The notes under the pieces: model-generated
Seen by the model: the letters and a program-made list of their open reading frames with translations, nothing else
Told to the model about the DNA's origin: nothing
The model's database searches: none
In this document: positions 4,559 to 64,000 of the stretch, in pieces
Layout: each line of letters begins with the position of its first letter
How positions within the stretch are numbered: position 1 is the first letter of the stretch
DNA from: Hoeflea prorocentri
Lineage (GTDB): Bacteria; Pseudomonadota; Alphaproteobacteria; Rhizobiales; Rhizobiaceae
NCBI RefSeq assembly: GCF_027944115.1
Contig: NZ_JAPJZI010000001.1
Coordinates: 1,922,001 to 1,986,000, forward strand
Direction of reading: 5' to 3'
Length of the DNA stretch: 64,000 nucleotides
Translations under genes and position numbers: made by a program

Positions 4559-6589
4559 ATGCTTGGACGACTGACGATCGATGCCCTTCCGTTCTATAGC
4601 TGGGTCGCGATGGCGGGTGCCGGCGTGACCGTTCTTGGCGGGCTGATCGTCGTCGGCCTGCTGACCTATTTCAAAGCCTGGCGCTATTTCTGGACCGAGT
4701 GGGTGACGAGCGTCGATCACAAGAAGATCGGCATCATGTATATCGTTCTCGCTCTCGTGATGCTGCTGCGCGGGTTTATCGACGCCATCATGATGCGGGC
4801 GCAACAGGCCTTTGCACTGAACTCCGAGGGCTATCTGCCACCGGATCACTTTGAACAGATATTCAGTTCTCACGGCACGATCATGGTCTTTTTCATGGCC
4901 ATGCCGTTCCTGACCGGGCTTTTCAACATTGTTGCCCCACAGCAGATCGGTGCGCGCGACGTTGCTTTTCCATTCTTGAACTCTGTCAGTTTCTGGCTGA
5001 CGGCTGCCGGCGCCGGGCTGGTTCTGATTTCACTGGTTATTGGCAAATTCTCAGAGGCGGGCTGGACCGGATATCCCCCTTTCTCCGGCATCGAATACAG
5101 CCCGGGTGTGGGTGTCGACTACTGGATCTGGGCATTGGCTGTCAGCGGGGTCGGCAGCACGCTGACCGGCATCAACTTCGTCGTGACGATCCTGAAAAAG
5201 CGTGCGCCCGGCATGACGCTGATGCGCATGCCGATGTTCTCCTGGACGACGCTGGTGGTCAGCCTGTTGATGGCCTTTGCATTCCCTGCGCTGACCGTCG
5301 TCGCGATTCAGCTTGGCCTCGACCGCTATCTCGAGTTCCATTTCTTCACCAATGGCGACGGCGGAAACATGATGAACTTCGCCAACCTGCTTTGGATCTG
5401 GGGACACCCGGAGGTCTATATCCTCATCCTGCCGGCTTTCGGCGTCTATTCTGAAGTCGTCGCGACCTTCTCCGGCAAGCGTCTCTTCGGCTACGATTCG
5501 CTGGTCTATGCAACCGGCTGCATCGGCATCCTGTCGTTCACCGTCTGGCTGCACCACTTCTTCACGATGGGTTCGAGCGCCAATGTGAACGCGTTTTTCG
5601 GCATTGCAACCATGGTGATTGCCGTACCGACCGGTGTGAAAGTGTTCGATTGGCTGTTCACCATGTATCGCGGCCGGATTGTCTTTCACCCGTCCATGTA
5701 CTGGACCATCGGCTTCATCGTGACCTTTGTCATCGGCGGCGTCAGCGGCGTCCTTCTGGCCCTGCCGCCTGCGGACTACCTGATGCATAACTCGACCTTC
5801 CTGGTCGCACATTTCCACAATATGCTGATCCCCGGCGCCCTGTTCGGCTATTTCGCCGGAATGAATTACTGGTTCCCCAAGGCTTTCGGCTTCAAACTCA
5901 ACGAGACCTGGGGCATTCGCGCCTTCTGGTTCTGGATCATCGGCTTTTATCTGGCCTTCATGCCGCTCTACGTGCTCGGTTTCATGGGAATGGTCCGGCG
6001 GATGGAGCATTACAACGTGCCGGAGTGGCAGCCCTATCTGCAGGTCGCCGCCATCGGCGCGGTCCTGATCCTGATCGGCATCGGCTGCATCATCATGCAG
6101 CTCATCGTCAGCGTACGCGACAGGGCCCAGAATATGGATGTGACGGGCGATCCGTGGAACGGACGTACACTGGAATGGGCCACCGCCTCACCTCCGGCTC
6201 CGTACAATTTTGCCGTACTTCCCCAGGTCAAGGATCTTGACGCCTTCGCCGACATGAAACGGCGCGGCGTGGTCGCAGCGAAGCCCACGCAATACGAGGA
6301 CATTCACATGCCCAAGAGCACGGGCGCCGGCGTTATCCTCGGAGGATTAGGCTTCCTTCTGGGCTTTGCTATGATCTGGCATATTTACTGGCTGGCCGCT
6401 CTCTGCCTTGTCGCAGTGCTTGCGGTTCTGATCATCCGCTGCAGCAATGACGATGACGAATATACAATCACCGCTGCAGAGGTGGAGGCGTTTGAACGCA
6501 CACGAGTTTACTCCACGCTGACCATCCCCTCAGATGCCGAAGTTGCCGGCGGCACAGCCGGTAAACAACCGCAACCGGGAAATATCTGA
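4559..6589 (+). CDS. cyoB: Cytochrome bo3-type ubiquinol oxidase subunit I
   Basis: The 676-residue catalytic subunit, with the low-spin haem and the haem-copper centre where oxygen is reduced and protons are pumped. Visible motifs are WGHPEVY (CuB histidine and cross-linked tyrosine), LHHFFTMG (CuB histidines), [13 protein letters not shown] (haem ligands), the K-channel lysine in PTGVKVFDW and the D-channel aspartate in [11 protein letters not shown]. Length is close to the E. coli protein (663). It lies 12 bases after cyoA. cyoE for haem O synthesis is not in the window. Confidence 0.97.
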
Positions 6590-6590
6590 C

Positions 6591-7208
6591 ATGACGATTG
6601 CGGACACGCCCACCACGGATCACGGAACCCTTGAGCTAGGCGGCGGCAAAGCATTCGAGGAACGTGAATTCGGCTTCTGGCTCTACCTGATGACGGATGC
6701 GATCATCTTCGCACTGATGTTTGCAACCTATGTGGTCATGAGCGGCAATATTGCGGCCGGCCCCGATGCCAAATCACTTTTCGACCTGCAGCATACGGCA
6801 GGCGAAACCTTCCTGCTGCTGCTTTCAAGCATCACATTCGGCTTCGCGACACTTTCTTCGCTTGAGAATCAGAACAACCGTGTCATTTTCTGGTTGGTGG
6901 TCACGGCATGTCTTGGCGCGGGCTTTGTTGCCATGGAAGTCAGCGAGTTCGTCGGCATGATCAATGCGGGCGCAGGCCCCGGCACAAGCGGTTTCCTGTC
7001 GGCCTTCTTCACGCTGGTCGGCACGCATGGACTGCATGTGACAGCCGGCATCGTCGGAATTCTCGTGATGGTCGGCCAGATTGCAGTCAAGGGGCTCACC
7101 AATCCCGTGCGTTCCAGGCTCTACCGGCTCGGCCTCTTTTGGCATTTCCTCGACATTGTCTGGATCGGGATCTTCTCGGTCGTCTATCTGCCGGGGATCC
7201 TGTCATGA
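6591..7208 (+). CDS. cyoC: Cytochrome bo3-type ubiquinol oxidase subunit III
   Basis: A 205-residue membrane protein with five predicted helices. FGFWLYLMTDAIIFALMFA and GTHGLHVTAGI are subunit III signatures, and HFLDIVWIGIFSVVYLPG closes the protein. An upstream start at 6534 is possible, but ATG at 6591, one base after the cyoB stop, gives the expected N-terminus and fits tight translational coupling. It stabilises subunit I and does not carry redox centres. Confidence 0.95.
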   Translation: MTIADTPTTDHGTLELGGGKAFEEREFGFWLYLMTDAIIFALMFATYVVMSGNIAAGPDAKSLFDLQHTAGETFLLLLSSITFGFATLSSLENQNNRVIFWLVVTACLGAGFVAMEVSEFVGMINAGAGPGTSGFLSAFFTLVGTHGLHVTAGIVGILVMVGQIAVKGLTNPVRSRLYRLGLFWHFLDIVWIGIFSVVYLPGILS

Positions 7209-57583: not shown

Positions 57584-57789
57584 CAGCCGTCCTTTCCGCG
57601 CAGTCCGATCAGCCCGAGGCCGAACGAGATCATGACGGCAGGCGGCACATCGGTCATAGCGCTGAGAATATTGGCAGCAGGCTTCAGGCTCGGGATTTCT
57701 CCCCCGGCGGCAACAACCGCGCCGGCCAACAGGGCAGCGAAGCCAGTCCACCAGGTCAGTGATCGGGGTTTGAAGTATTTCCTGGTCAT
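57583..57789 (-). CDS. 68-residue membrane protein of the lysis cassette
   Basis: A small protein with two hydrophobic stretches (about 13-33, LTWWTGFAALLAGAVVAAGG; about 46-63, PPAVMISFGLGLIGLRG). It lies between the endolysin and the holin with overlaps at both ends, so it is coupled to both. It could be a second holin or antiholin; similar short ORFs occur in rhizobial prophages. Not assigned to a family. Confidence 0.62.
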   Translation of the reverse strand: MTRKYFKPRSLTWWTGFAALLAGAVVAAGGEIPSLKPAANILSAMTDVPPAVMISFGLGLIGLRGKDG

Positions 57790-58571
57790 CGTTTTCCTCC
57801 AAATACCAGGGTGAGGATGGACAGCAGCATGGCCAGCGGACGGAAACCGGGCTTTGTATCTGAAACCACGCGCGGGGCGGCGTCGGGTTTGCTGCCGGGT
57901 GAAGTCAAACCGCACTTTCGTTCGGTGAAACCCGCTTGGGATACCGATGCCGGGTTGACCGTGTCCCTGGGCACACCGCCTGCATTGCGGATCGCCATGA
58001 GAAACGAGCGGTAGTAGCCGGCAATCACTTCCCACTTGTCGGTAATGTTGACGGTCCGCCGGGCGCCCTTGAGATCATCCTTGCGGGCATCGGGCAGGTA
58101 ATGAGCAATTCCGAAACCACGGCCGTTCCAGCGCCCGTCCAGCAAACCTCGAATGAGAATGCGCGCGCCGATAACCGGATCGAGCGCCTTGTCAGGATAT
58201 CTGACGAGGTCGACACCGGCGTCCTCGCTTGAACGCTCGTAATTGCGCTTCCAGGTAAGCTGCACCTGGCCACGGCCGTAATAGGCGTGGCCGTAAGGTG
58301 GTTCCGGTTGGGCATATCTGGCCTGGCGCAACCGGTGGCGAGCCGTGGCGTCATCCTTCGCGAGCGTTTCACGCACCGGAACCATGCGCCGAGCGGTCTC
58401 GTGATAGGCGGTGGCAAGTGCGTAGGCGAGCGTCTTCGCCCGCCCATCGCCATGGGAGACAAAGGCATCAAGAATACCCTCGATACCCCTCACCTGCTGC
58501 TGGGATAAGGACGTGCCAAACACGCCACTCCCACGACGCCGCAGCGCCGTAAAGAATGCTGTACGGTTCAT
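57786..58571 (-). CDS. GH19-type endolysin
   Basis: A 261-residue lysozyme-like protein. The chitinase/GH19 catalytic region shows TLAYALATAYHETARRMVPV (catalytic Glu in YHET) and YGRGQVQLTWKRNYER, both family hallmarks. A C-terminal hydrophobic segment (PLAMLLSILTLVFGG) could anchor it in the membrane. It degrades peptidoglycan for lysis. Its 5' end is duplicated, decayed, at 59118. Confidence 0.88.
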   Translation of the reverse strand: MNRTAFFTALRRRGSGVFGTSLSQQQVRGIEGILDAFVSHGDGRAKTLAYALATAYHETARRMVPVRETLAKDDATARHRLRQARYAQPEPPYGHAYYGRGQVQLTWKRNYERSSEDAGVDLVRYPDKALDPVIGARILIRGLLDGRWNGRGFGIAHYLPDARKDDLKGARRTVNITDKWEVIAGYYRSFLMAIRNAGGVPRDTVNPASVSQAGFTERKCGLTSPGSKPDAAPRVVSDTKPGFRPLAMLLSILTLVFGGKR

Positions 58572-58604: not shown

Positions 58605-58633
58605 TTGACACATCTGTAGCCCGCAAGTTAAAG
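58605..58633 (+). promoter_or_regulatory. Possible promoter of the first short leader-like ORF
   Basis: TTGACA at 58605-58610 and TTAAAG at 58628-58633 are separated by 17 bases, 32 bases before the ATG at 58666. The -35 is perfect, the -10 weak. Confidence 0.4.
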
Positions 58634-58665
58634 TTATTGTTTCTAAACATCACAAGGTTTAGGCA

Positions 58666-58758
58666 ATGAAAAAAAGCTACGAAAAACCACAGGCTCGAGC
58701 ACAAGGCAGACTCGAGAAGACTACAGCAATCGTTCCGCTGTCTCTTAAGAAGAAATAA
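58666..58758 (+). CDS. Short RiPP-leader-like peptide, 30 residues
   Basis: A 30-codon ORF. Tyr5, Pro8, Gly14 and Thr20 fit the spacing of the lasso-peptide leader motif YxxPxLxxxGxxxxxT, with Ala at the Leu position. The remainder after Thr20-Ala21 is only IVPLSLKKK, without the Asp/Glu at position 7-9 needed for a lasso ring. It begins MKKSYE, identical to the next ORF. A plausible promoter precedes it, but the ribosome-binding site (AAGG) is weak. Too short for ordinary gene callers. No maturation enzymes are nearby. Confidence 0.45.
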   Translation: MKKSYEKPQARAQGRLEKTTAIVPLSLKKK

Positions 58759-58858
58759 GAACCGGATAAGCTCTTGTTCTTGAGATACCGCACGCCGTCG
58801 CGGCTATCTGAACAACTACACTCGCTTTGATTGGGGGTGTATGGCCTCGAGGAATGAC

Positions 58859-59011
58859 ATGAAGAAGAGCTATGAACGTCCTGTCATGAAAAAGACGGCC
58901 AGACCTAGCAACGACACGGCCATGACGGTGGTCTCCGGAGCAGGTACCAAGGGCGGCGGCAGCCCACCCGCTTTACCTGCCGATGGTGGTGGACTGATTT
59001 TAATTCCTTAA
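58859..59011 (+). CDS. Short RiPP-leader-like peptide, 50 residues, Gly/Pro-rich C-terminus
   Basis: A 50-codon ORF with GAGGAA 5 bases upstream. It begins MKKSYERP and keeps Tyr5, Pro8, Met10, Ala14 and Thr20 in the spacing of the lasso leader motif (YxxPxLxxxGxxxxxT). The part after Thr20-Ala21 is Gly/Pro-rich (VVSGAGTKGGGSPPALPADG, ending LILIP) with no Asp/Glu at ring positions 7-9. Codons for the residues it shares with the previous ORF differ mostly in the third base, a sign of coding constraint. An in-frame ATG at 58841 is an alternative start. Precursor function is inferred only from the leader. Confidence 0.5.
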   Translation: MKKSYERPVMKKTARPSNDTAMTVVSGAGTKGGGSPPALPADGGGLILIP

Positions 59012-59826: not shown

Positions 59827-60091
59827 TCTGCCCCAACGGCCTTCCTATTCACAATGCCCATGTCAGCGGTTTGCTAAATGGTATCATCAGAGTTGCTTGC
59901 CTTCAGAAGACAAAACTGCATCGCCTTCGGACACGTAGGCGCGTTCATCTTTACCCCGTGCTACTATCATCCAGACCCTACTGGGGCTTAGGAAGCAACC
60001 GACCATGACTCCTTAAAAGAAAAGCTGACATTTCGAAAACACTATTGCCACGCTGTTGACTTGTGGTTGCAGATGTATATCCCATATCACC
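59827..60091. other. Intergenic AT-rich region before the glycosyltransferase
   Basis: No gene is visible. TTGACT at 60056-60061 and TATCCC 16 bases later could form the promoter of the glycosyltransferase gene, 31 bases before its ATG. Confidence 0.35.
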
Positions 60092-60892
60092 ATGCCGATT
60101 ACCGTGGTGATCCCCTCTATCCCGTTTCATGTTCAGTATCTGCCAAGCTTGCTAAGGGCTTTTGCATCCGGTGAAACCGTCCCCAACGAGTTGATCGTCT
60201 CACTGAGCAATGCCGACCAGGTGTGGCGCCCCACAGTCAACGCCCTTGAACGTTTAGGGAAAGAGCTTTTCCCGTCATTCCATCTGCTTCGACACGTAAA
60301 AACATTGAAACATGGACCAAACCGGCAAGCCGCTGTGGCTCACTGCACAAACGACATCATTTCTTTTTTTGACAGTGACGATTTACCTTACCCAAATAGG
60401 ATCAAGGTGCTTGAGGAAGTCTTCAAGGACGAGGCTGTTTCTCACGTCAGCCACGGGTGTACATCGCTAGGGTCGCCGCTTTTTTGTCACTGGCCAGACA
60501 CAATTCCTATTCGTGCAAAAACTGATGACTTATTGCGCTTGCACTTCTCAAATGGACAACAATCAATCTCTGACTGCACCGGTTCAGTGTACTGCGCAGG
60601 TCTTCCTCAAAGCCGGTATAGCAACCAATACATAGGCATTCACTCCGGGCATGTGACCGTTCGAAAGAACGTGTTTGAAAAAGTGCAGTGGAAAGATTGG
60701 GGAGAGCTTTGTTTTGGCAGTGCTGAGGACTTCGAATTCGATATCGAATGTCTATTTCACTATCGACAATCAATAGTCATCGACCTTCCGCTATCACAAT
60801 ATCGAAAAGGACATAAACCCGCAAATCGGGTATCCCGATTGATACGTTCAACCGGTCGTGCATTAATCCGCAGAGCCAATAATTTTGTCTAA
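60092..60892 (+). CDS. Family 2-type glycosyltransferase
   Basis: A 266-residue GT-A fold protein. It starts MPITVVIPSIPFHVQYLPSL; the nucleotide-sugar DxD motif is IISFFDSDDLPYPNRI (about residues 88-103), and HGPNRQAAVAHCTND precedes it. The second half is divergent (GSAEDFEFDIECLFHYRQS may provide the acidic catalytic base). It is the only plus-strand gene of the phage module, with lower GC than the neighbouring core genes, so it may be a lysogenic conversion (O-antigen) gene. Substrate unknown. Confidence 0.8.
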   Translation: MPITVVIPSIPFHVQYLPSLLRAFASGETVPNELIVSLSNADQVWRPTVNALERLGKELFPSFHLLRHVKTLKHGPNRQAAVAHCTNDIISFFDSDDLPYPNRIKVLEEVFKDEAVSHVSHGCTSLGSPLFCHWPDTIPIRAKTDDLLRLHFSNGQQSISDCTGSVYCAGLPQSRYSNQYIGIHSGHVTVRKNVFEKVQWKDWGELCFGSAEDFEFDIECLFHYRQSIVIDLPLSQYRKGHKPANRVSRLIRSTGRALIRRANNFV

Positions 60893-60932: not shown

Positions 60933-61808
60933 CTATCGAGTGATTTTCAATGTATACTTACCTTCAAAGCCTACAAAGCGTTGACTTAAAATATTGATTA
61001 CTTCTTCAGGTTCGGCATTGAGTATCTGGTCAATGTCTTCATGCCATGAAAATAGTTCGGCCCGATCCGGCTTATCCCTGAAACCCTCATCATAAGCAGC
61101 GACTATGTCCTTGTCCTCGATAACCTCATTGCACTCCGATGTAAGAACAAACATTGCGTTGTTATATTGAAGGGACTCTAGCTTATACCCAAACGGTCGG
61201 ATAACTTCCGCCGCGGCGACCAAGGAACACCCGTTGAATGCACCATTTCCATACTCCACATCCTCATGATAATCCACAGTGAAGAACACGGGTGGCGGGA
61301 TGCTTTCATTAATTTCCAAAGTGATAATCGTCGGTCGATAACCACCCTTAAGCAACGCCTCGGCAACGGGCAAATCATAGGAATCGATATCGATATTCAG
61401 GATCGAAAACCGCTCTGGAACCTCATGTGCCTGCAGTAAGGAGCGGACATTGGTAGGTGTTACCCGGTTCATTGCCAATTGGGTGTTTGAAAACTCCGTG
61501 TAAACGAATGCCATCTGACCAAACTGCTCTGGCCTCACCTCCACCGCAAGTCCCGACCAGTCCGGGCGCTTGAAAAACCCTAGTGTGCAGGACTGATTGA
61601 CGCCATCGCTCGCCCCGATATCGACTACATAGCCGGCTTCAATACCGAGCTTTTCGGCTAGTTGATTCAGGTGGGCATATTCCCCCGCGAAGGATCTATC
61701 TTCCTTCCGTGACCGGCGATGGTGTCTTACCATGCCACGTGCTTTCTTTATGACTGTCCCTGACGGAATGAGCCGTCTTATTCTTTCTTCTAATGCCTGT
61801 GAAATCAT
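60933..61808 (-). CDS. FkbM-type methyltransferase-like protein
   Basis: A 291-residue protein. The SAM-binding motif I reads YVVDIGASDGVNQSCTLGFF (about residues 59-78), followed by an acidic residue in GLAVEVRPEQFGQMAF, and FSILNIDIDSYDLPVAEALL is motif IV-like. The pattern fits FkbM/methyltransf_21, often acting on sugars or surface polysaccharide. Next to the glycosyltransferase (converging, 40 bases apart), a role in modifying a surface glycan is plausible. Codon use is AT-richer than in core genes. Confidence 0.75.
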   Translation of the reverse strand: MISQALEERIRRLIPSGTVIKKARGMVRHHRRSRKEDRSFAGEYAHLNQLAEKLGIEAGYVVDIGASDGVNQSCTLGFFKRPDWSGLAVEVRPEQFGQMAFVYTEFSNTQLAMNRVTPTNVRSLLQAHEVPERFSILNIDIDSYDLPVAEALLKGGYRPTIITLEINESIPPPVFFTVDYHEDVEYGNGAFNGCSLVAAAEVIRPFGYKLESLQYNNAMFVLTSECNEVIEDKDIVAAYDEGFRDKPDRAELFSWHEDIDQILNAEPEEVINILSQRFVGFEGKYTLKITR

Positions 61809-62307: not shown

Positions 62308-64000
62308 TTACTGTTTCCAAAGCTTTACTCTGAGATAATGTTCCGTTTCACCGTGGTTACCCGCAGCATTTGATTGCGTGCCATGCCAATATCGAAGCTC
62401 AACGCGATAAGTTTTGTTCGGAAGAAGATCGCAAATACCGTGCACGTTGAATGTCGCATGCGACCCGCCAGCAAAGCCAGAAGTTGACGAAGCAACCACA
62501 ACTCCATCAGTCACATTATAAACCCGACTTTGCATGTTGTTTGCACGTCGCACGGGGGTCATCCATTCACAATGGCAAGCCACTATTGGAGTGAACTGAT
62601 TAGATGTGATCGAAACAATGTTCTTTGGGTCATGCACCTCGGTGTTAAGGTCCAGATGTCGCCAAGCACCCGCCGCAATGGACTGACCGCTTGTTCCTGG
62701 AGCCTTCTGATCTTCAAGAATGGCGTCAGGCCAACCACCTCCCCCCAAAGCCCCAATCGCCTGAGCCGTTCGTTGTGGGGTCATAAGCTTGTTGGTCACC
62801 GCACCTGCTTCCGCTTCAGCCTGGCTGGCGATGTTTGCGCTGATGGTACGATTTGCTGATAATACACCACCACCCGTCAAACCCGTTCCCGCTGTCACCG
62901 TGCGTGTTGTCGGCACCTTCGCATTTAACGCCGCCTGCTGTGCTGTACTCACCGGCTTTGCCGCGTCCGCTGTGTTGTTGACATTGCCCAGCCCCAGCGT
63001 CGCGCGGGCGTTGCTTGCTGCGGTATCGTCGATCAGTGCTGCGCCGAACGCGCTGATCGTCGTGTTCGCCGGCAGGCTGAGGGTCTTGATATCGGCGTCC
63101 ACCTCGCTGTCCATCAGCGCGCCGGCCGCCGTCACGTTGGCGGTGTCGGTCACGTCCGCGCCCGCTTCCACGCTGTCGAGCTTGGTCTTGAGCGCGGTGG
63201 TGAAAGCTTGATCCGTGCTGTCGAGAACCGGTTTGTGCGCCTGCACGTCGGCTCCGATGGCAAGGCCAAGATTGGTGCGTGCCGTCGCAGCATTTGACAG
63301 ATCCGAAAGATTGTTGACCGCAAGCATGTCGCCGGCGCCGATGCCGTCCGTGCCGCGCTGGGCGAGAACCTCCCAGTAGGTCGTCCAGTTTGCGCCGACG
63401 CCCGGCTGGCTGGCCGAACCGGAGGTGTGCGCCTGCATGCACACATAACTGCTGCCATTGTTGCCGACCGCCTGTCTCGGATTGACGGCGCTGTAGGCCG
63501 TTGCGGTCGCCCAGGCGCCCGTCCAGTCGATCTCCGCAACCTGCGCGGCGGTCGCACTGTTCGCGGCGGCTGTTTCGCTCGCCCCCGCGGCGGAGGCGCT
63601 GCCGGCCGCATTCGCTTCGGATGTTGCCGCATTCGCCGCGGAAGCCGCAGCGCCCGCTGCGGATCCTGACACGCTGGTCTCGGATGCTGCCGCATTGGCA
63701 GCGGAGGTTGCCGCCGCCGCTGCGCTGCCGGCCGCATTTGTCTCGGATATCGCGGCATCGCCGGCGCTCGCCGCCGCGCCCGCGGCGCTGGCCGAGGCTT
63801 CGCCCGCCTTCGTGTTGGCCGTCGTGGCGGAGCCTGCCGCGCCCGTTTCCGAAAGCCCGGCTGCCGCCGCGCTCCCCGCCGCCGCCGTTTGCGAGGCCGC
63901 CGCGTTGGCGGCGCTTGTCGAGGCCGAACTCGCACTGCCGGAGGCGGACGCAGCGCTTGAGGCTGCCGCCGTCTCGCTGGCGGCGGCGTTGATCGCAGCC
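62308..64000 (-). CDS. Phage tail fibre protein, N-terminus beyond window
   Basis: The frame is open to the right edge, about 564 residues visible. From the visible N-terminal side: about 115 residues of Ala/Ser/Thr-rich repeats with recurring AASET and ATSEANA units (as in lambda Stf-like fibres), a carbohydrate-binding-like segment (WATATAYSAVNPRQAVGNNG, then SSYVCMQAHTS), stalk repeats (AVNNLSDLSNAATARTNLGL; GTGLTGGGVLSANRTI), and a C-terminal tip. A GTG at 63672 is an internal, less likely start. The C-terminal third is visibly AT-richer, suggesting tip exchange. Confidence 0.85.
   Translation of the reverse strand, partial: AAINAAASETAAASSAASASGSASSASTSAANAAASQTAAAGSAAAAGLSETGAAGSATTANTKAGEASASAAGAAASAGDAAISETNAAGSAAAAATSAANAAASETSVSGSAAGAAASAANAATSEANAAGSASAAGASETAAANSATAAQVAEIDWTGAWATATAYSAVNPRQAVGNNGSSYVCMQAHTSGSASQPGVGANWTTYWEVLAQRGTDGIGAGDMLAVNNLSDLSNAATARTNLGLAIGADVQAHKPVLDSTDQAFTTALKTKLDSVEAGADVTDTANVTAAGALMDSEVDADIKTLSLPANTTISAFGAALIDDTAASNARATLGLGNVNNTADAAKPVSTAQQAALNAKVPTTRTVTAGTGLTGGGVLSANRTISANIASQAEAEAGAVTNKLMTPQRTAQAIGALGGGGWPDAILEDQKAPGTSGQSIAAGAWRHLDLNTEVHDPKNIVSITSNQFTPIVACHCEWMTPVRRANNMQSRVYNVTDGVVVASSTSGFAGGSHATFNVHGICDLLPNKTYRVELRYWHGTQSNAAGNHGETEHYLRVKLWKQ

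Follow-up and report, generated by a model that had tools for sequence, protein, structure and literature searches.

The two short open reading frames analyzed here, ORF1 and ORF2 of Hoeflea prorocentri, most probably encode precursors of a distributed RiPP system that are brought in trans to a single cyclase-less RRE-B2-kinase locus and yield a linear product. We assign this reading a probability of about 0.78. The ORFs lie in a stretch of 64,000 nucleotides (the window, C1:1922001-1986000); the genome has two contigs and a size of 5.04 Mb. An earlier note had described them as tandem ORFs with a lasso-type leader, and both were found on the forward strand, ORF1 at 58666..58758 (30 amino acids) and ORF2 at 58859..59011 (50 amino acids). 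In each of them residues 1-21 are the leader, followed by the core peptide IVPLSLKKK in ORF1 and MTVVSGAGTKGGGSPPALPADGGGLILIP in ORF2. The leaders have MKKSYE, Pro8, Arg15, Thr20, and Ala21 in common, and the lasso-type features, the YxxP motif and a Thr near the leader end, are present in our alignments A1, A2, and A5. A recount of the eight common codons listed in the note confirmed that six differ and that all six differences are silent; the Arg15 codon is identical in the two ORFs.

Shine-Dalgarno-like sequences were read by eye on the forward strand 5′ of ORF1 (AAGG, 58654..58657) and of ORF2 (GAGGA, 58849..58853). The latter favors a start of ORF2 at position 58859 over the alternative ATG at 58841, which would produce a peptide of 56 amino acids. 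A candidate sigma-70-like promoter 5′ of ORF1, TTGACA-18-TAAAGT (58605..58634, forward strand), is a consensus match and a weak one, since one such pattern was found when 0.5 were expected in shuffled sequences. A terminator-like site at 58977-58992 is located inside ORF2 and was no better than those found in shuffles.

The genes surrounding the two ORFs include a GH19-type endolysin on the reverse strand (57786-58571; PF00182, 1.9e-7; phrog_181, 3.8e-23), a candidate Rz-like spanin (phrog_739, 4.4e-4), and a tail-fiber-like protein (62308-63672) that matches several phrogs. Between these phage-like neighbors sit a glycosyltransferase family 2 gene identified by Pfam (60056-60892) and an FkbM-like gene (60933-61808). 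FkbM-type methyltransferase-like genes were observed near both precursor groups that are set among phage-like genes; the copy in the window scored under the Pfam cut-off and the other one (L022:9145-9957) above it.

The H. prorocentri genome was found to have nine leader-bearing short ORFs at five chromosomal places. A genome search with ORF2 as the query identified a paralogue at C1:545572 (50% identical, E 8.6e-8) and weak matches that were later seen to be further leaders, and a profile of six paralogues, A1, recovered three more precursors. The five places are C1:545572 (one ORF, adjoining a polysaccharide cluster that by eye looks alginate-type), C1:1551937-1552549 (two ORFs), the window (C1:1980666-1981008, two ORFs), C1:2004738-2005439 (three ORFs with phage-like genes around them, including a portal gene matching phrog_332 at 1.4e-89 and an endolysin), and C1:2233807 (one ORF). 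The leaders of this genome approximate MKKxYEKP...L...TA. In the wider alignment A5 the consensus is MKKxYEKPxLxKRxKLSxVTA, with Tyr5 and Pro8 invariant in 26 of 26 rows. ORF1 matched A1 with an E value of 4.0e-14 and A5 with 8.7e-10, scores that are not independent of its membership because ORF1 is a row of each profile (A1 includes both window ORFs). The earlier note had also considered that the ORFs might be prophage-borne peptides for immunity or signaling. The sole support for this idea is the prophage-like neighbors, and three of the five places, as judged by eye, are not visibly prophage.

The proposal that the leader is under selection was sustained by the pooled pN/pS of the nine leaders (36 pairs), which was 0.49 in frame and 1.21 in the +1 frame. 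This value, together with the silent differences in six of the eight common codons, the Shine-Dalgarno-like sequences, and the promoter candidate, bears on the possibility that ORF1, and maybe also ORF2, is a decaying copy or a mobile-element decoy that no longer gives a product; a decoy might keep the RRE occupied. Such an origin would agree with a core that in ORF1 is the shortest of its genome and has no Ser-Gly, with the prophage-like genes adjoining both ORFs, and with the Pro found at position 16 of the ORF2 leader where the leader alignment usually has Leu. ORF1 may be decaying, but we consider decay or decoy function a rather unlikely explanation of the pair.

The same note had reported that the ORFs lack enzymes. 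This holds for their neighborhood and fails for the genome, where the suggested search for enzymes identified an RRE, a transglutaminase-like B2, and two asparagine-synthetase-like proteins. Transglut_core3, the lasso B2 family, had one match in the genome, at C1:3775770, and PqqD had three, one of them adjoining B2. The resulting B1-B2-kinase locus (L021, C1:3775376-3777091) is ~1.8 Mb from the window. It encodes a B1 (RRE) of 96 amino acids with the PqqD fold (PF05402, 4e-14), a B2 leader peptidase of 147 amino acids (NF033537, 52.4 bits, cut-off 33), and an HprK-like kinase of 329 amino acids that matched TIGR04352 at 3.1e-8, far under the family cut-off. On the opposite strand are genes for an NTP_transf_5 protein (8.6e-21), a small ACP-like protein whose acyl-carrier match is weak (0.0088), a GNAT (1.5e-8), and an AMP-binding (acyl-AMP) ligase (9.7e-44). 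A profile of ten B1 proteins compared with solved structures matched the lasso RREs TfuB1 (2.6e-11) and TbiB1 (6.9e-7), both ahead of PqqD; by sequence, none of the solved structures was like B2. Residues Cys83 and His120 of B2 and the kinase P-loop SGxGKTTT are invariant in 12 of 12 aligned proteins each, as are K-G and D-x-D in nine of nine aligned NTP_transf_5 proteins. There was no asparagine-synthetase-like cyclase in the 19.9 kb around B1-B2 and no SpI-like peptidase among the seven proteins of the locus that were scanned. Since an RRE and a B2 are encoded elsewhere in the genome, the suggestion that the ORFs are orphan precursors was discarded, and the one that they act in trans with a distant RRE was supported by this locus and its near-perfect co-occurrence with the precursors across genomes.

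The GNAT, ACP-like, and acyl-AMP ligase trio (L021:11112-14383) is also found in L093-L097, L101, L102, and L109, and accompanies the locus in nine of 20 family genomes. Its presence suggests acylation of the peptide or of its decoration. Two further PqqD-type RRE genes of H. prorocentri have HprK-like proteins nearby and no B2 (L023:8029-9142, on C2, and L024:5690-9562, at C1:1199-1203 kb). L023 also includes a small Tat-like protein (6312-6617) that, as judged by eye, could be a substrate of the RRE/HprK-like pair.

The homologues of the leaders were collected and aligned, and the genes that co-occur with them were scored in two sets of genomes. In the family sample of 297 genomes, B2, scored by NF033537, was present in 25. 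The B2 loci were of two kinds. Twenty genomes have the cyclase-less kind and nine the canonical one, which includes an asparagine synthetase; four genomes have both. The 20 cyclase-less loci include B1 and HprK in 19 cases, NTP_transf_5 in 18, and GNAT and ACP in nine; in G213, B2 is alone of the set in its 18.5 kb stretch, and the locus of G267 has no NTP_transf_5. At an E value of 0.001, the 26-row profile A5 detected precursors in exactly the 20 genomes that have a cyclase-less B2 locus, in none of the five canonical-only genomes, and in none of the 272 genomes without B2 (20/20 versus 0/277, Fisher 1.6e-31, kinship of the genomes ignored), a count that is not independent because A5 rows come partly from this sample and because related genomes are not independent events. 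Profile A2, made from the H. prorocentri genome alone, matched 26 genomes at an E value of 0.01, 19 of them with matches at the leader start, and all 19 have B2. The remaining seven (G003, G026, G072, G094, G103, G126, and G129) were set aside as false, since their matches start at model position 7-15 in longer frames, and none of them passed with A5.

The order sample also consisted of 297 genomes, at least 10 of them common to the family sample. B2 was found in 19 and precursors in 12, all of them among the 19. Thirteen genomes have a cyclase-less locus and 12 of these have precursors, which were detected in 0/6 canonical-only genomes and 0/278 without B2. The exception, G371, has a cyclase-less locus and no match at E 0.001. 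Beside its B1 are three tandem ORFs with a divergent leader, MKKPYVPPMVTxTVRL...VPVSG (L272:6949-8093), which were found with a looser pattern after the fact and left out of the counts. In a second B2 locus of this genome (L271) neither cyclase nor kinase was seen, and it is unclassified. G537 and G554, both from the Mesorhizobium-type genus g74, have neither B2 nor precursors. These results indicated that precursors recur in relatives, where they often adjoin B1-B2, and that the cyclase-less B2 locus tracks them. In four Mesorhizobium-type genomes, the cyclase-less locus and a canonical lasso locus with its cyclase are ~12-27 kb apart (G073, L100/L099; G155, L104/L103; G217, L107/L120; G271, L111/L119).

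The co-occurrence also weighs against two other explanations. One is that the peptides are substrates of the other PqqD-type RRE and HprK-like loci (C2:61881 or C1:1202858) and not of B1-B2. Three PqqD-type genes are indeed present in the genome, and an HprK-like protein is encoded near each of the two outside the B2 locus, a likeness judged by eye and naming, one of the two having no family match. However, 114 of the 297 family genomes have PqqD-type genes, and 94 of those 114 have no precursors, so RRE presence alone is not predictive of precursors, whereas precursors track the cyclase-less B2 locus in 20/20 genomes and in relatives often adjoin B1-B2. PqqD-type RREs in general were therefore rejected as the partner, and we regard substrates of those two loci as quite improbable. 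The other explanation is that the ORFs are short, arose by chance, and are unrelated to RiPPs. Both are indeed short, and searches with ORF1 and ORF2 gave no match in NCBIfam (E up to 10) or Pfam (E up to 5). A search of a phage collection gave weak and unrelated-looking matches with a best E of 2. In NCBIfam, seven relatives matched nothing but lasso leader models, all under cut-off. The E value of the paralogue, the family-wide recurrence, and the co-occurrence with enzymes refute chance for the family and leave it a negligible probability for these ORFs. The protein WP_258589678.1, from the Mesorhizobium plasmid pMspAR02b, has a leader of the same family and is named "putative RiPP precursor" by NCBI; the 12 kb around it showed no partner enzymes, and none are named in its record.

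When named genomes were scanned with the B2 alignment, 117 relatives were found. The best 80 of the 117 were analyzed, and these are mostly Mesorhizobium, with Hoeflea poritis, Nitratireductor sp. XY-223, Oricola, Chelativorans, Ancylobacter, and some metagenome bins also among them. In the 80 loci, 70 of them full length, B1 and HprK were found in 80, B2 in 79, NTP_transf_5 in 78, and asparagine synthetase in none, a zero that is partly a matter of selection because the scan patterns were made from cyclase-less B2s. Precursor-like ORFs are in the flanks of 39 of the 80 loci. In the B2 tree, one branch with support of 98/98 splits 27 cyclase-less from nine canonical rows (two rows are long-branched); by this sequence comparison the cyclase-less B2s are one distinct group.

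The cores were examined in 139 profile matches. Nine, ORF2 of the window among them, were not splittable into leader and core and were dropped; the 130 parsed cores include 121 distinct ones, with a core start that is uncertain by a residue or two. The middle half are 8-13 residues long. Ser-Gly is present in 59 of the 121, approximately threefold over the 19.2 ± 3.6 obtained when residues were shuffled within cores (maximum 31 in 2000 shuffles). Ser is found in 109 cores, Ser or Thr in 120, and Cys in seven. The 62 cores without Ser-Gly are in many cases from outside the own genus, where Ser-Gly follows the leader in 25 of 26 distinct peptides, ORF1 being the sole exception. As had been noted, both window cores lack the Asp/Glu needed for a ring, with neither residue at position 7-9. 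This was common: Asp/Glu occur at core position 7-9 in 11 of the 121 and are accompanied by Gly, Ala, Ser, or Cys as the first residue in two. Judging from their sequences, the cores would rarely permit a lasso ring.

These data bear on the proposal that the ORFs are genuine lasso precursors served by a macrolactam cyclase from another place in the genome. The leader, the RRE, and B2 are all of lasso type, and the genome has five matches to the asparagine synthetase family, three of which look by eye like other superfamily enzymes. The other two, at C1:2830715 (691 amino acids) and C2:87762 (620 amino acids), are full-size asparagine-synthetase-like proteins, either of which could be the missing cyclase. 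However, both start with MCGIAG, its Cys presumably being that of glutamine-dependent amidotransferases, and neither adjoins an RRE or B2. In addition, a cyclase was found in 0/20 cyclase-less family loci and 0/80 further loci, few cores have a suitable Asp/Glu, and four genomes have, in addition to a cyclase-less locus, a second, canonical lasso locus with its own cyclase. A separately encoded cyclase is thus very unlikely, and a canonical lasso product was rejected on account of the missing cyclase at the locus and the unsuited cores.

Leaders of this family were also observed in other arrangements. Six ORFs in four genomes of three genera have the leader fused to a Peptidase_S74 domain, an endosialidase-type self-cleaving chaperone (L124:9606-10034 and L124:8875-9492 in G279; L229:1694-2011 in G213; L219:1690-2031 in G151; L283:6857-7252 and L288:1811-2311 in G453). 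Two of the six were submitted to Pfam, and S74 was confirmed in both (24.1 and 30.9 bits, cut-off 22). The domain may act as a removable follower. In L231 (G213:C49:629500-634200), far from the B2 of that genome, approximately nine leader-bearing ORFs are arranged in tandem and have the leader variant RKSYEKPxxRKSxxLLQSVTAQ.

In the pathway that we propose for the distributed system, B1 would bind the YxxP leader, and the HprK-like kinase would phosphorylate a Ser of the core that typically belongs to a [VIFA]-Ser-Gly motif. In ORF2 the candidate phosphorylation site, suggested by the Ser-Gly enrichment, is Ser26 in the VVSGA motif (codon at 58934..58936, forward strand); in ORF1 a candidate modification site, placed by its position in the sequence, is Ser26 (codon at 58741..58743, forward strand). 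The NTP_transf_5 protein could then elaborate the Ser phosphate, and in the own genus and some others the ligase/ACP/GNAT trio might add an acyl group. Cleavage after Thr-Ala by B2 would release a linear peptide and not a lariat. As there is no cyclase at the locus, linear phosphorylated peptides are probable. From the neighboring polysaccharide genes we would guess at a role at the cell surface.

We lean slightly toward a broader view, in which these peptides constitute a distinct Hyphomicrobiales RiPP family that arose from lasso machinery whose cyclase was lost or lacking. One hub would serve scattered precursors, some on prophages or plasmids and some fused to S74 as a removable follower, and the products would be linear, phosphorylated, and decorated peptides of rhizobia and their relatives. 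Since NCBI already names one relative as a putative RiPP precursor, the precursor family itself is not new; the open-access literature that was searched held no account of a connection between the family and a cyclase-less B1-B2-kinase locus, of the scatter of the precursors, or of their co-occurrence. If this view is correct, the tiny genes of Mesorhizobium and relatives, unannotated or annotated as putative RiPP precursors, acquire an enzyme partner, and linear phosphorylated lasso-like peptides extend beyond Bacillota. It would also mean that a B2 peptidase of ancestral type works without a cyclase and that a pool of RiPP precursors is spread over the chromosome, prophage-like regions, and plasmids. 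The product would be directly testable, with one locus, many leaders, and natural Mesorhizobium strains that have neither part.

To our knowledge, the prochlorosin system has no RRE, B2, or kinase. Prochlorosins are lanthipeptides, with a leader and an enzyme unlike those described here. They are similar in that many diverse cores follow one conserved leader and are processed in trans by one promiscuous enzyme, ProcM (PMC10783134). Lasso peptides share with the H. prorocentri system the YxxP leader with a Thr near its end, the RRE, and B2, but they have a cyclase together with B1/B2 and a core Asp/Glu at position 7-9, neither of which characterizes the system described here. Within the lasso peptides, paeninodin and pseudomycoidin are closest in gene content, with an RRE, a B2, an HprK-like kinase that phosphorylates Ser, and a nucleotidyltransferase-like protein; PMC9266682 reports phosphorylation of Ser by PadeK and ThcoK and the addition of hexoses to phospho-Ser by PsmN. 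These peptides have a macrolactam cyclase, a C-terminal phospho-Ser, and a threaded lariat structure (PMC9266682), whereas here there is no cyclase and the Ser is internal.

The nearest published relatives of the system described here are the linear polyphosphorylated peptides (LPP) of Bacillota. As presented in PMC13381572, LPP clusters have a discrete lasso-like RRE, an HprK-like kinase, an NTP transferase, and no macrolactam cyclase, and they combine a YxxP leader motif with one to three variable short precursors and a frequent location near polysaccharide loci. In this cyclase-less system with an SpI-type peptidase, LppK phosphorylates Ser3 of the core of a linear peptide; according to the same paper, LPP occur only in Bacillota and their RREs group in a clade of their own. 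The differences are also clear. The leader peptidase of LPP is an SpI-like signal peptidase and here it is the B2 cysteine peptidase; the LPP leader is YxxPxVLxHQxIxFETxxS and ours is approximately YEKPxLxKRxxLSxVTA (PMC13381572, for the LPP features). An MsbA-like transporter belongs to the LPP locus, and no transporter was noticed next to B1-B2 here. LPP precursors lie within the cluster, whereas here there are up to 13 matches per genome, often distant, and PMC13381572 does not name the acyl-AMP ligase/ACP/GNAT trio as part of the LPP core genes. Since the system departs from lasso peptides in its cyclase and core, and from LPP in its peptidase and leader motif, we have filed it as neither.
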